DNA from: Chthonomonadia bacterium
Lineage (GTDB): Bacteria > Armatimonadota > HRBIN16
DNA length: 64,000 nt
Direction of reading: 5' to 3'
Assembly: GCA_013314755.1 (NCBI GenBank)
Contig: JABUFA010000011.1
Span: 1-64,000, forward strand
The translations under genes were made by a program, and so were the position numbers. Shown piece by piece: positions 48,102 through 56,675 of the stretch. Every line of letters starts with the position of its first letter. Position 1 is the first letter of the stretch. The notes under the pieces were generated by a model, which saw nothing but the letters and a program-made list of their open reading frames with translations, was not told the DNA's origin and ran no database searches.

Positions 48102-48129
48102 AAAGGGGGCATCCCACGATGCCCCCTTT
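48102..48129. terminator. Bidirectional intrinsic terminator
   Basis: GGGGGCATC (48105-48113) and GATGCCCCC (48118-48126) form a perfect stem around CCAC, flanked by AAA on the left and TTTA on the right, so it can work for both the DHOD-like gene (+) and flgM (-). Confidence 0.85.
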
Positions 48130-48489: not shown

Positions 48490-48551
48490 GACAATCCTGC
48501 CTCCTTCGGCAACGCCTTGCAGAACCGCGTTGCGTCGTTCGGCAGAACTTC

Positions 48552-48648
48552 GGCAGCCGGGCTATCATATCCCGACCCTCGTCGGGACTTAGACCCCAAT
48601 GGCTTTGCGTCCCCACATTTCTGTGGGTTTGCCTTTATCGGATCCGCC
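48552..48648 (-). promoter_or_regulatory. Cyclic di-GMP-I (GEMM) riboswitch upstream of flgM
   Basis: The minus strand carries every conserved block of the GEMM-I aptamer in order: AAAGGCAAACC (about 48636-48626), the P1b hairpin CCCACA-GAAA-TGTGGG with a GNRA tetraloop (48627-48612), GACGCAAAGCC (48611-48601), GGGGTCTAAG (about 48597-48588), the second hairpin TCCCGAC...GTCGGGA (48587-48570), and ATGATAGCC...GGCTGCCG (48568-48551). P1 can form from GGCGG (48648-48644) and CTGCC (48556-48552). The aptamer ends about 60 bases before the flgM start. The G-G preceding CAAACC favours c-di-GMP over cGAMP. Confidence 0.93.
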
Positions 48649-48660
48649 TGTCAATACCCA

Positions 48661-48688
48661 TTATTGGCAAATCTGCAGAAGAACTTTA
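48661..48688 (-). promoter_or_regulatory. Sigma-28-type promoter for the riboswitch-flgM transcript
   Basis: Minus strand TAAAGTTC (48688-48681), 12 bases, GCCAATAA (48668-48661). The flagellar consensus is TAAAGTTT, 11 bases, GCCGATAA, so 14 of 16 positions match with one extra spacer base. Predicted transcription starts near 48654, about six bases before the first riboswitch stem, which fits well. A weaker sigma-70-like TATACT lies further upstream at 48733-48728. Confidence 0.75.
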
Positions 48689-48770
48689 GGGTTCTACCCG
48701 CGATTTTTCGCCTTTTTTTTCAAAATCAGTATAACACGAACGGTACAGGGAAGACAAGGTTGGTATCTTT

Positions 48771-48941: not shown

Positions 48942-51488
48942 CTACTCCTTCCAGCCCTTTACACCTATCTTCTCCACAGGTATCGGCTGGAAGCCCAGCC
49001 GCCACGCAGGCGAGTTGGGGCGCAGGCGGTAATCATCCCTCTCTGGCGCAACAAACAGGGGGTCTGCTACCAGGGAGTGCGCGTCAAAGCCTGCTCGGCG
49101 CCAGTCCTCCAGCGTGCCCAGCGGCGTGCGCCCCTTGCCGGCATCGCCGCCCTTCAGCCAGTACAGGTTATAGTCCCACTCGGCGAAGCGGTCGGTGCGC
49201 CGGTCCCAGGAGAAGATGAGTGCCGCCTGCGGGTTGGAATACGCCACGATGTTGCGCAGGAAGCGATTGCCCTGCATGAAATCGTCGCGAGGCTGAAGGC
49301 GTATCTGCTCCACGCTGGCGTCCACAAAGATGTTGTTCTCAAACAGGTTGTTGCGTCCGCCGTGCACGCAGATGCCGCCGTTCACCGTCCGCGCCACGAT
49401 GTTGCCGACAACGGTGGTGCCACTGCTGTAGTCGTCCAGATAGATGCCCCACGTGAAGTAAGGGGTGATAATCCTGCCGTCGGGCGTGCTGATCATGCCC
49501 ACCGAGTCCAGAATCAGGTTATAGCGGATGATGTTGCCGGTGTCCTTGTGGTCGCGTCCGAGCGTCTCAATCGCGCCGGTGTCGTTGGTCTCCAGGTTGG
49601 TGCGGCGCAGGTCGTTGTACTCCACGATGTTGCGATGGGAGCTGCGCGTTTCGTCGAGGCACTTCAGCGAGATGGCGTAGCGCGGCGTGTCCCAGATGGT
49701 GTTATGCGCGATGCGGTTGTCGCTGCCCGTAATCACGTACACCCCCGCCACATGCTTGTACACGTGCCCCAGGTTCCGCATCAGGTTGCCCGCGATGAGG
49801 TTATGGTGCGGCTGGCTGGCGTTATCGCCAATGAGTATCACGCCTCCCTGCGCCACGTCCTCCACACGGTTCTTCACAAACCGGATGCGCTGGCTGCGCT
49901 CCTCCAGCCGAAGGGCATACCCGCCCACCAGACGGAAAGTGCACTCCCGTACCACACAATCGCGCGCGCCAGCCATCCAGACCACGGCATCGGCGGGCAT
50001 GTAGTAGTTCGTGGTTAGTGTGTAGTCGGTGTCGGTGAAGGCGAAGCCTTCAAAGCGCAAATGCTCCACCCATCGGTTGCGCTCTGGTTCACCTTTCAGC
50101 ACGATAAGGCGGTCAAGCCGGGTGAGTACGGTGTTCGCAGGCGCTTTGTCCGTCTCGGAAAGGTAAAGCAGACTGCCCGTTTGCCTGTCCAGATACCACT
50201 CGTTGGGTGCGTCCAGTGCCTCACGCACGTTCTCGATGAAGTAGCGATTGCCCAGTCGGATGTCGTCGGTGTAACCATCAGGTGGCAGGAGGATACGGCG
50301 CGCCTCGTAGTCGATGCGCACAATCGGCGCAATGGCGTTCACCCAGCCCCACGCGGGAAAGATGTGCAGTTCGGCGCCGGTGGTATCCTGCCAGCGGGGA
50401 AGGTCGCCCTCCGAAAACGCCAGATACTCGCGCGAACCGGGCGGCTGAGGAGTGGCAACGGTCACCTCCCTACCAATCGCCTCGTCGCAGGCTTCTGCCT
50501 GAATCAGCACCAGATGCTTGCCTGCAGGGGGCTTCTGCAGGCGGAACGCGCCCCACCATTCCAAATCGCCGATTGCCTGCTCGGGGTTCCAGTTCGGGTC
50601 GTCGCACAACGCGAGTGCATCCATGTTCAGTCCGCCGCCCTGCGTGTTGCGCCAGCGCAGGGTGTGTTCGCCCGCGCTCAGGCGAATGGTTGCCACATGC
50701 GACCAGCGGAACGTGCCCCATCCGCCGGTGCTGCCAAGCCCCGAAAGCGGCACAGGGTCCTGCTCGTCCACCTGCACCACGCATCGTCCGCTCATGTCCC
50801 GCGCTTCGCCCTGATTGTCCGATCCATAGCGCATCCACAGCAGATACTCTCCGTCGGCGGGCACGCGAATTCGCCAAACTAAGGTATCGCCCACATTGTG
50901 GATATTACCCACGCCCTGACCGAACACCCCGCGCTCCCATCGCTCCCCGTGAAAGCCTGCAAACAGCCACCCACCTGTGCGAGGGTTCTGGGGGTCAAAG
51001 TTGGGATGTCGGGCGCGGATAGCCCAGCGTTCGCCGACACGCAGGAGGCGCGGCGTCCAGCTTGTCCCACGCGCTTCGGGAACCTCTGCACGCCACAGAT
51101 TCCCCTGCACCCTCCGCCAGCCGGTGACAGGAACGCCCCCGCTCAGGATAGCTCGCCCTGCCTTTTGCGCGCGATAAGTGATGGGGTTCTGCGCCGTGCC
51201 CGAATCGTCGGGGGTGAAGACCAGCGGCTCGTTCAGGTAGTACGTGCCCTCCGCGACAATGACCTCTATTGGTCGGTTCACTCCTTGTTGTTTTAGCCTG
51301 CGCACCTCCTGCTGGGCGCGAGTTAAGGTGGCAAAGGGACCGTCCTTTCGTTTGGCGTCGGGCACTGCGTATCTACCCGACCAGCGGTCATCTCCCGTTG
51401 GCGATACGTACAACCGCACCGGCGTCTGCTGGGCGAACGCAGACACGGCGAGCAGGATGAACAATGCACACATGAATGGTCTCCTCAT
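48942..51488 (-). CDS. Secreted right-handed beta-helix protein (polysaccharide-active?)
   Basis: An 848-residue secreted protein. After the signal peptide (1-20, CALFILLAVSAFAQ) it starts LYVSPTGDDRWSGR, typical of pectate-lyase-like right-handed beta-helix proteins. A carbohydrate-binding-like insert lies at about 190-310 (RVPADGEYLLWMRYGSDNQG, LSAGEHTLRWRNTQGG). The parallel beta-helix (about 470-780) is marked by many NxIxxN-type rungs such as HHNLIAGNLMRNLG and NNLFENNIFVDA. It may bind or cleave a polysaccharide; catalytic residues are not obvious. The start at 51488 keeps a charged signal peptide; an ATG at 51473 has AGGAG better placed and is an alternative. Confidence 0.8.
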   Translation of the reverse strand: MRRPFMCALFILLAVSAFAQQTPVRLYVSPTGDDRWSGRYAVPDAKRKDGPFATLTRAQQEVRRLKQQGVNRPIEVIVAEGTYYLNEPLVFTPDDSGTAQNPITYRAQKAGRAILSGGVPVTGWRRVQGNLWRAEVPEARGTSWTPRLLRVGERWAIRARHPNFDPQNPRTGGWLFAGFHGERWERGVFGQGVGNIHNVGDTLVWRIRVPADGEYLLWMRYGSDNQGEARDMSGRCVVQVDEQDPVPLSGLGSTGGWGTFRWSHVATIRLSAGEHTLRWRNTQGGGLNMDALALCDDPNWNPEQAIGDLEWWGAFRLQKPPAGKHLVLIQAEACDEAIGREVTVATPQPPGSREYLAFSEGDLPRWQDTTGAELHIFPAWGWVNAIAPIVRIDYEARRILLPPDGYTDDIRLGNRYFIENVREALDAPNEWYLDRQTGSLLYLSETDKAPANTVLTRLDRLIVLKGEPERNRWVEHLRFEGFAFTDTDYTLTTNYYMPADAVVWMAGARDCVVRECTFRLVGGYALRLEERSQRIRFVKNRVEDVAQGGVILIGDNASQPHHNLIAGNLMRNLGHVYKHVAGVYVITGSDNRIAHNTIWDTPRYAISLKCLDETRSSHRNIVEYNDLRRTNLETNDTGAIETLGRDHKDTGNIIRYNLILDSVGMISTPDGRIITPYFTWGIYLDDYSSGTTVVGNIVARTVNGGICVHGGRNNLFENNIFVDASVEQIRLQPRDDFMQGNRFLRNIVAYSNPQAALIFSWDRRTDRFAEWDYNLYWLKGGDAGKGRTPLGTLEDWRRAGFDAHSLVADPLFVAPERDDYRLRPNSPAWRLGFQPIPVEKIGVKGWKE

Positions 51489-51633
51489 GCCAATCTGATA
51501 TGACACATCCTCTATTCTTTCCTGCCACGCCTGACCCGCCCATCGTTCCGTTGATTCCATCCACCGGAAAAAGGTAACATTACACCAATCGGTTGTCATT
51601 GCAAGGATGCTGGTAGAGGGAGGGAACTTCGCG

Positions 51634-52170
51634 ATGAGGTTAATGGTGGTTGTCATCGTCTTGGTGGTGGCGGGCACGGTCGCCATTGTCAAACTGGCGA
51701 CCTACGACCCGATGGCAGACGATTTGCTGGTGGACATCAGCGCCCTGCACACATGGAAGCCAACCACCGAGCAGATAAGAGCCGAAATCAGCCAGGCACG
51801 TTCGTTACAGGAGCAGAGGCAGATGTACGGTCGCCTGTTCCGCAGCCGCTACCGCAGTAAAGAGATACCCGTCAACCTGCGTGCGGACAATCAGGGGGTG
51901 TTCTATTTAGAGTGCGCGGCAACTATTCCCACCTGGGACAAAGCACTGATTGCCCGGCAGGCATGGTGCGAAATCCGCGACCTGTTCGGCGGAAGCCCCG
52001 AGGTACTGATTTATGAATCTTACATCGGCACGCCCTCGCGCTGGGTAGGAGTGGCAAGGGCGCACTCCGAGAAGCCAGACTCACCCGAAGTGGTGTTCGA
52101 CACCGGCTGGCATCTCAAGCGCAAACCGCGCGACACGGACTTCCTGAGCAGACTGCCGCAGGGCGGTTAG
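51634..52170 (+). CDS. Hypothetical membrane-anchored protein
   Basis: A 178-residue protein I do not recognise. A single N-terminal membrane helix (about 1-20, LMVVVIVLVVAGTVAIVKL) precedes a soluble part with a basic helix (QEQRQMYGRLFRSRYRSKEIPVNLR) and mixed alpha/beta sequence (PEVLIYESYIGTPSRWVGVARAH). GGGAGG is upstream of the start at 51634. It is transcribed divergently from the beta-helix gene and its stop overlaps that of glyS by 4 bases, tail to tail. Function unknown. Confidence 0.6.
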   Translation: MRLMVVVIVLVVAGTVAIVKLATYDPMADDLLVDISALHTWKPTTEQIRAEISQARSLQEQRQMYGRLFRSRYRSKEIPVNLRADNQGVFYLECAATIPTWDKALIARQAWCEIRDLFGGSPEVLIYESYIGTPSRWVGVARAHSEKPDSPEVVFDTGWHLKRKPRDTDFLSRLPQGG

Positions 52171-55932: not shown

Positions 55933-56652
55933 TCAGTTACTGGTAAAGAGTTCGCGCAGGTCGGCTTTGCCCAAAGGCAATCCTGCCACCTTACGCTTGA
56001 TTCGCGCCAGGGCGTTATCTACGGATTTTGTTTTGCATTGCAACGCCTCGGCGATTTCCCGGTACGATTTGCCGAAGTGATAGTGCATCAGCACGCGCCA
56101 TTCGAAATCGCTCAGCAGTTGCTGGAGCGTGCGCTGCAGCTGGCGGGTATCTTCGGCGCGGAGCAGTCGCTCCTCCGGGTCGCTGCTCGGCTCAGCGGGC
56201 AGCATATCCGCCAGGCTCCAGTCGGCGTCTTCATCGTCCGACGTCACCTCCAGCGACAGGGAGGTGTTCAGTGGCATCTGTTTCTGGCGCGTCGCCGCCT
56301 TGATGGCGGTAATGATATGCCGCTGGATGCACACTTTGGCAAACGCCGGGAACGAAATGGGCTTATCGGTTCGGTAATCGAGGATAGCCTGCCACAGCCC
56401 AATCATACCGACCTGCAGCAGGTCCTCGCGTTCTGCGCCCAACAGGAAATACGATTTAACTTTGGTGCGAACCAGGTTGCGATACTTATACAGCAGGAAC
56501 TCCGCCGCCTGTTCGTCGCCTTTCTGCGCCTGCTCTACGATTTCCCGGTCGGACATCTGCATGTAGCGACGATAGCAGCGCTTGACGTGCGATTCACCTT
56601 CCGTGAACACTGTATTCCCATCCTCACCCAATGATAGAGTGGGCGGCTGCAT
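55933..56652 (-). CDS. Sigma factor of the SigH/Spo0H type
   Basis: A 239-residue sigma-70 family factor most like the sporulation/stationary-phase factor SigH. Region 2 contains EFLLYKYRNLVRTKVKSYFLLGAEREDLLQVGMIGLWQAI (in part, key words KSYFLLGAEREDLLQVGMIG) and IQRHIITAIKAATRQKQMPLN; region 4 contains YREIAEALQCKTKSVDNALARIKRK, where KSVDNAL is typical of this group. The start at 56652 is chosen because a promoter with a predicted start site near 56669 lies just downstream of a longer GTG option at 56673. No strong ribosome binding site is seen. Sporulation itself is not implied. Confidence 0.85.
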   Translation of the reverse strand: MQPPTLSLGEDGNTVFTEGESHVKRCYRRYMQMSDREIVEQAQKGDEQAAEFLLYKYRNLVRTKVKSYFLLGAEREDLLQVGMIGLWQAILDYRTDKPISFPAFAKVCIQRHIITAIKAATRQKQMPLNTSLSLEVTSDDEDADWSLADMLPAEPSSDPEERLLRAEDTRQLQRTLQQLLSDFEWRVLMHYHFGKSYREIAEALQCKTKSVDNALARIKRKVAGLPLGKADLRELFTSN

Positions 56653-56675
56653 ATTCACAGCCGTGTTCTGCACTC

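Follow-up and report, generated by a model that had tools for sequence, protein, structure and literature searches.

The 64,000-nt stretch of Chthonomonadia bacterium DNA analysed here (hereafter the window) encodes the anti-sigma-28 factor FlgM in what we consider, with a probability of about 0.72, to be a single-gene unit, in which a sigma-70-type and a sigma-28-type promoter feed a c-di-GMP-I riboswitch leader that acts as an ON switch within a negative feedback loop on sigma-28 (Table 1). In this circuit, sigma-28 would transcribe the gene of its own inhibitor, which constitutes the negative feedback. As long as c-di-GMP is absent, GUUCUGCC would pair with GGCAGGAU at the Shine-Dalgarno sequence and FlgM translation would be low; with c-di-GMP bound, the P1 helix (GGCGGA:UCUGCC) would capture GUUCUGCC and free the ribosome site. 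More FlgM would then restrain sigma-28, and expression of flagellin and other late genes would drop. c-di-GMP usually halts swimming via proteins or by shutting early flagellar operons; in the window its apparent target is how much anti-sigma factor is made, so that it would set the gain of a feedback loop already in place. The circuit is simple, testable, and recurrent in the little-studied phylum Armatimonadota.

The identities of riboswitch and gene, originally assigned without database searches, were confirmed by profile searches. The aptamer scored far above the gathering score of the c-di-GMP-I (GEMM-I) covariance model (81.5 vs 35 bits) and precedes flgM by about 59–60 nt, in the same orientation and in the position of a 5' leader. 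The FlgM protein matched both PF04316 (E 2.6e-15, 56.8 bits, cut-off 25) and TIGR03824 (53.1 bits, cut-off 40.75) and thus belongs to the FlgM family. Downstream of flgM, an inverted repeat flanked by T runs is probably a bidirectional terminator for flgM and a convergent DHODH-like gene. Upstream of flgM, at 48942..51692 and in the same orientation, lies a gene for a large right-handed beta-helix protein whose CBM_35 match is sub-threshold. A SigH-like sigma factor, above the cut-off of the NCBIfam sporulation SigH model, is encoded at 55933..56673 (minus strand).

Table 1 Features of the flgM locus, in window coordinates
Feature	Position	Strand	Details and basis
Sigma-70-type promoter	48728..48757	-	TTGTCT-N18-TATACT, extended -10 (TG); consensus scan
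Sigma-28-type promoter	48661..48688	-	-35 TAAAGTTC 48688..48681, N12, -10 GCCAATAA 48668..48661
Putative transcription start	48654	-	about 7 nt past -10; usual sigma-28 promoter geometry
P1 helix, 5' strand GGCGGA	48643..48648	-	pairs with UCUGCC 48546..48541; sequence and constrained folds
c-di-GMP-I riboswitch aptamer	48549..48643	-	RF01051, 81.5 bits, full length (1-87/87)
Switching strand GUUCUGCC	48541..48548	-	P1 3' strand (ON) or anti-Shine-Dalgarno strand (OFF)
Spacer hairpin GCAACGC ... GCGTTGC between switching strands	48509..48533	-	folds
Shine-Dalgarno AAGGAGG (48506..48500) overlapping GGCAGGAU (48501..48494)	48494..48506	-	sequence
flgM, anti-sigma-28 factor, 103 aa	48178..48489	-	PF04316, TIGR03824
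Inverted repeat flanked by T runs	48102..48129		sequence

Promoters of the flgM leader

The minus strand bears the sigma-28-type motif exactly where the original prediction had placed it and with the agreement claimed for it, 14 of 16 positions of TAAAGTTT/GCCGATAA at a spacer of 12. TAAAGTTC-N12-GCCAATAA is the sole match in the window at three or fewer mismatches and the same spacing, with 0.12 expected from shuffled sequences, and its -10 element ends 17 nt before the aptamer. The E. coli sigma-28 consensus has a spacer of 11, one shorter than the window copy; a spacer of 12 is usual among the flgM promoters of the phylum (TAAA-N16-GCC in 36 of the 42 matches listed). The usual promoter geometry would put the transcription start near 48654 and thus 6 nt 5' of the P1 strand at 48648, reproducing the predicted distance of about 6 bases to the first riboswitch helix. 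Across the whole genome the strict core TAAAN14-17GCCRATA was not enriched (6 matches vs 7 in the reversed control), and genome-wide enrichment was therefore dropped as an argument for the promoter. By these counts the motif alone is not significant; its position and conservation are.

The nearest named relatives are the MAGs Armatimonadetes bacterium RSWS16, HRbin16, and SKYG83, in keeping with an assignment of the window to Armatimonadota. Conservation was assessed within the genus, where each of nine genomes has a single RF01051 match, located upstream of flgM, and a tenth (80% complete) has neither an RF01051 match nor flgM. The alignment of the nine congeners preserved AACCCTAAAGTT, which one genome replaces by TCAAGTT, and TTTGCC(A/G)ATAAT, while the intervening bases drift, a pattern of kept elements and drifting spacer typical of a promoter footprint. 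The window copy deviates from the -10 consensus at one position only, where it has A instead of G; six of the nine congeners have the consensus G there, and agreement with the sigma-28 core reaches 12/12 positions among the congeners.

FliA, on whose presence the original prediction depended, is encoded in the same genome (G000:C50:15525-16199, 262.4 bits, cut-off 189.6) and was above the cut-off in 24/24 genomes with a flgM riboswitch within the set of 61 searched. Most of the flagellin genes checked in the genus have the same type of motif, TAAAGAA-N-(A/G)CCGATAA, about 92–93 bp before the ATG. The copy in the own genome, TAAAGAACCACGTAGATTTACCGATAA, agrees at 11/12 positions, and the motif is found at late flagellar genes of both this genome and its congeners. 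Matches to the sigma-28 core were just 9/12 or 8/12 in a second set of flagellin paralogues. A second flagellin gene per genome (L076, L077, L078, L082, and others) is preceded, about 141–151 bp upstream, by a conserved AAGATTCTTTATGGTTGCACTACCGATAA-like box, which fits the sigma-28 core poorly at its -35 end.

The genus footprint, the flagellin motifs, a FliA above the curated cut-off, and the recurrence of the motif at c-di-GMP-I riboswitches that are linked to flgM, but seldom at others (see below), support the prediction that the flgM riboswitch begins at a sigma-28-type promoter, and we infer that FliA uses it.

The original prediction included neither the direction of the c-di-GMP gate nor a further promoter, of sigma-70 type, located about 60 bp upstream of the sigma-28-type promoter. 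The score of the window copy is not significant alone (p 0.15) and the argument is carried by conservation: TTG(CAA)-N18-TATA(C/A)T stands at the same place, with a varying spacer, in 8/8 congeners with enough upstream sequence. Comparable sites at p ≤0.05 occur at 17 of 52 flgM-linked loci of the phylum among the matches listed. Because the sigma-70-type promoter is also conserved, flgM transcripts probably do not all stem from sigma-28, and the riboswitch would be carried by transcripts from both promoters. The predicted loop, in which FlgM is made by the sigma factor it inhibits and is gated by c-di-GMP, follows from the sigma-28-type promoter. Enteric flgM is likewise transcribed from two promoters, and the arrangement in the window resembles that supply.

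Two other explanations bear on the promoters. The upstream promoter might mainly drive flgM, with the sigma-28-like motif minor or inactive, which would accord with its conservation in 8/8 congeners and with a transcript that would include the same riboswitch. We regard this as improbable: the sigma-28 elements are equally or better conserved around a drifting spacer, and the motif occurs at 42 of the 54 flgM-linked cases listed and also before riboswitch-less flgM genes; a functionless site would not persist so. It is scarcely credible that the motif arose by chance or is conserved only as part of the RNA leader. The genome-wide count of 6 vs 7 in the reversed control would fit a chance match, but the motif lies outside the aptamer and P1, its -35 and -10 elements are constant while the spacer varies, and its position and enrichment across the phylum already contradict such an origin.

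Predicted expression platform and sign of the switch

The strand GGCAGGAU overlaps the last bases of AAGGAGG and sits between the Shine-Dalgarno sequence and the AUG. In the unconstrained minimum free energy folds of 9/9 congeners it is paired with GUUCUGCC, for which P1 and this anti-Shine-Dalgarno helix compete. The OFF fold pairs 2/7 Shine-Dalgarno bases and leaves the others in an internal loop. By fold energies computed without ligand, which ignore tertiary structure, the ON (P1) state is weaker by 5–10 kcal/mol at 37 °C and by about 4–6 kcal/mol at 65 °C, a gap that tight aptamer–ligand binding could pay. The region of the Shine-Dalgarno sequence and GGCAGGAU is conserved in the aligned congeners, and the spacer hairpin preserves its pairing though its bases vary. 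The anti-Shine-Dalgarno helix is invariant in the genus, hence no covariation signal is possible. When partners were swapped with those of other families, the GUUCUGCC:GGCAGGAU pairing beat nearly all of them. This test of coevolution between P1 and the anti-Shine-Dalgarno strand gave clear support for the family of the window and for f31 and was mixed elsewhere, with weak or negative results in families f12, f29, and f22.

Because folding predicts the Shine-Dalgarno-blocked OFF state as the minimum for each of the nine congeners, FlgM translation is probably switched ON by c-di-GMP. A translational ON switch is the simplest reading of the folds and would raise FlgM and lower sigma-28 output, as would be expected if, as a general rule, high c-di-GMP levels counteract swimming. 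We infer this sign for the flgM leader together with its start site and ligand binding. The own genome encodes 11 GGDEF domains, which could produce c-di-GMP. A terminator-type read-out was rejected for the window, as the leader contains no same-strand terminator between aptamer and flgM.

The same promoter and riboswitch could also operate with the opposite sign, c-di-GMP lowering FlgM and releasing sigma-28. c-di-GMP-I riboswitches are known to work in either direction, and families f5, f17, and f37 have an alternative to the platform of the window, in which a downstream GUUUGCCUUU or GUUUGCCUU could pair with the complementary AAGGCAAAC of the aptamer itself; because of this other platform, the sign inferred for the window may not be general and may differ in these families. 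For the window itself we consider the opposite sign unlikely, since in its genus the P1 strand competes directly with the Shine-Dalgarno region, the ligand-free minimum is Shine-Dalgarno-blocked in 9/9 genomes, and a same-strand terminator is absent from the leader.

Relation to known flagellar circuits

The ON-switch circuit proposed for the window shares single features with several described systems. In Salmonella/E. coli and Clostridioides difficile, flgM is likewise an anti-sigma gene driven by its own sigma factor from a class III (sigma-28/sigma-D) promoter, which in C. difficile depends on SigD (PMC5386303); flgM of these organisms is not known to have a riboswitch, whereas flgM of the window has one. 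In C. difficile, the c-di-GMP-I riboswitch Cd1 of the flgB operon controls flagellar genes and, via sigD, sigma-28 activity (PMC5386303) and has the aptamer class in common with the window. Cd1 is transcribed from a sigma-A promoter and acts as a terminator of the early operon containing sigD. By contrast, the aptamer of the window belongs to the anti-sigma gene, follows a sigma-28-type promoter, and has a predicted translational ON read-out. The E. coli small RNAs OmrA and OmrB control flgM translation initiation and thereby tune class III genes (PMC7549644). FlgM translation initiation is thus under RNA-level control in both cases, but OmrA/OmrB are trans-acting repressing small RNAs and the window has a cis-acting second-messenger riboswitch. 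All kinds of parts are known; combined in this way, they seem to form a new variant. We found no paper on a c-di-GMP riboswitch at flgM in the open-licence literature.

Occurrence across Armatimonadota

Positions of RF01051 and FlgM were matched in up to 255 genomes, and riboswitches that directly precede flgM in the same orientation were counted as linked. This yielded at least 54 flgM-linked c-di-GMP-I riboswitches in at least 54 Armatimonadota genomes from more than a dozen families. Promoters were scored in the 160 nt upstream of each aptamer against a literature-type core (TAAA, N15-16, GCCGATAA; threshold ≥10/12). Among the matches listed, sigma-28-type promoters were present at 42/54 flgM-linked riboswitches vs 3/32 first counted as unlinked, one of which (G213) turned out to precede flgM. 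The median distance from the -10 end to the aptamer was 17.5 nt in the 42 promoter-bearing linked loci listed. The remaining 12 of the 54 listed linked cases (e.g., G021, G062, and G033) scored below 10/12 and are without a convincing promoter. Several flgM genes of the phylum that have no riboswitch (L045, L049, L055, L070, and others) also have a sigma-28-type site, 28–68 nt before the start codon. This would suggest an older promoter and a riboswitch that was inserted later between promoter and flgM. Outside the phylum, the flanks fetched for flgM relatives from four Bdellovibrio and one Planctomycetota contained no RF01051 match. Whether c-di-GMP throughout the phylum normally enters the flagellar cascade at its anti-sigma factor, with sigma-28 promoter and c-di-GMP-I riboswitch setting the gain of the FlgM loop and the platform (perhaps also the sign) rebuilt independently in different families, is to our judgement an even bet.

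The other two promoter-bearing riboswitches without linkage to flgM, L153 (G051) and L161 (G204) of family f5, precede a small ORF that ends in LTI.(E/D)FF.K.GLRG, has no Pfam match, and possibly encodes a flagellar-regulon protein. The flgM leaders of f5 (L113) and f17 (L112, L124, L129, L135) and related loci contain GUUUGCCUUUUU, the exact complement of the conserved AAGGCAAAC, and fold into a long anti-aptamer helix. In family f12, the flgM riboswitches L096 (G020), L097 (G033), and L095 (G046) scored just about 30–36 bits and look like a variant aptamer subgroup; those of G020 and G033 have GGCACGAC in place of GGCAAAC.
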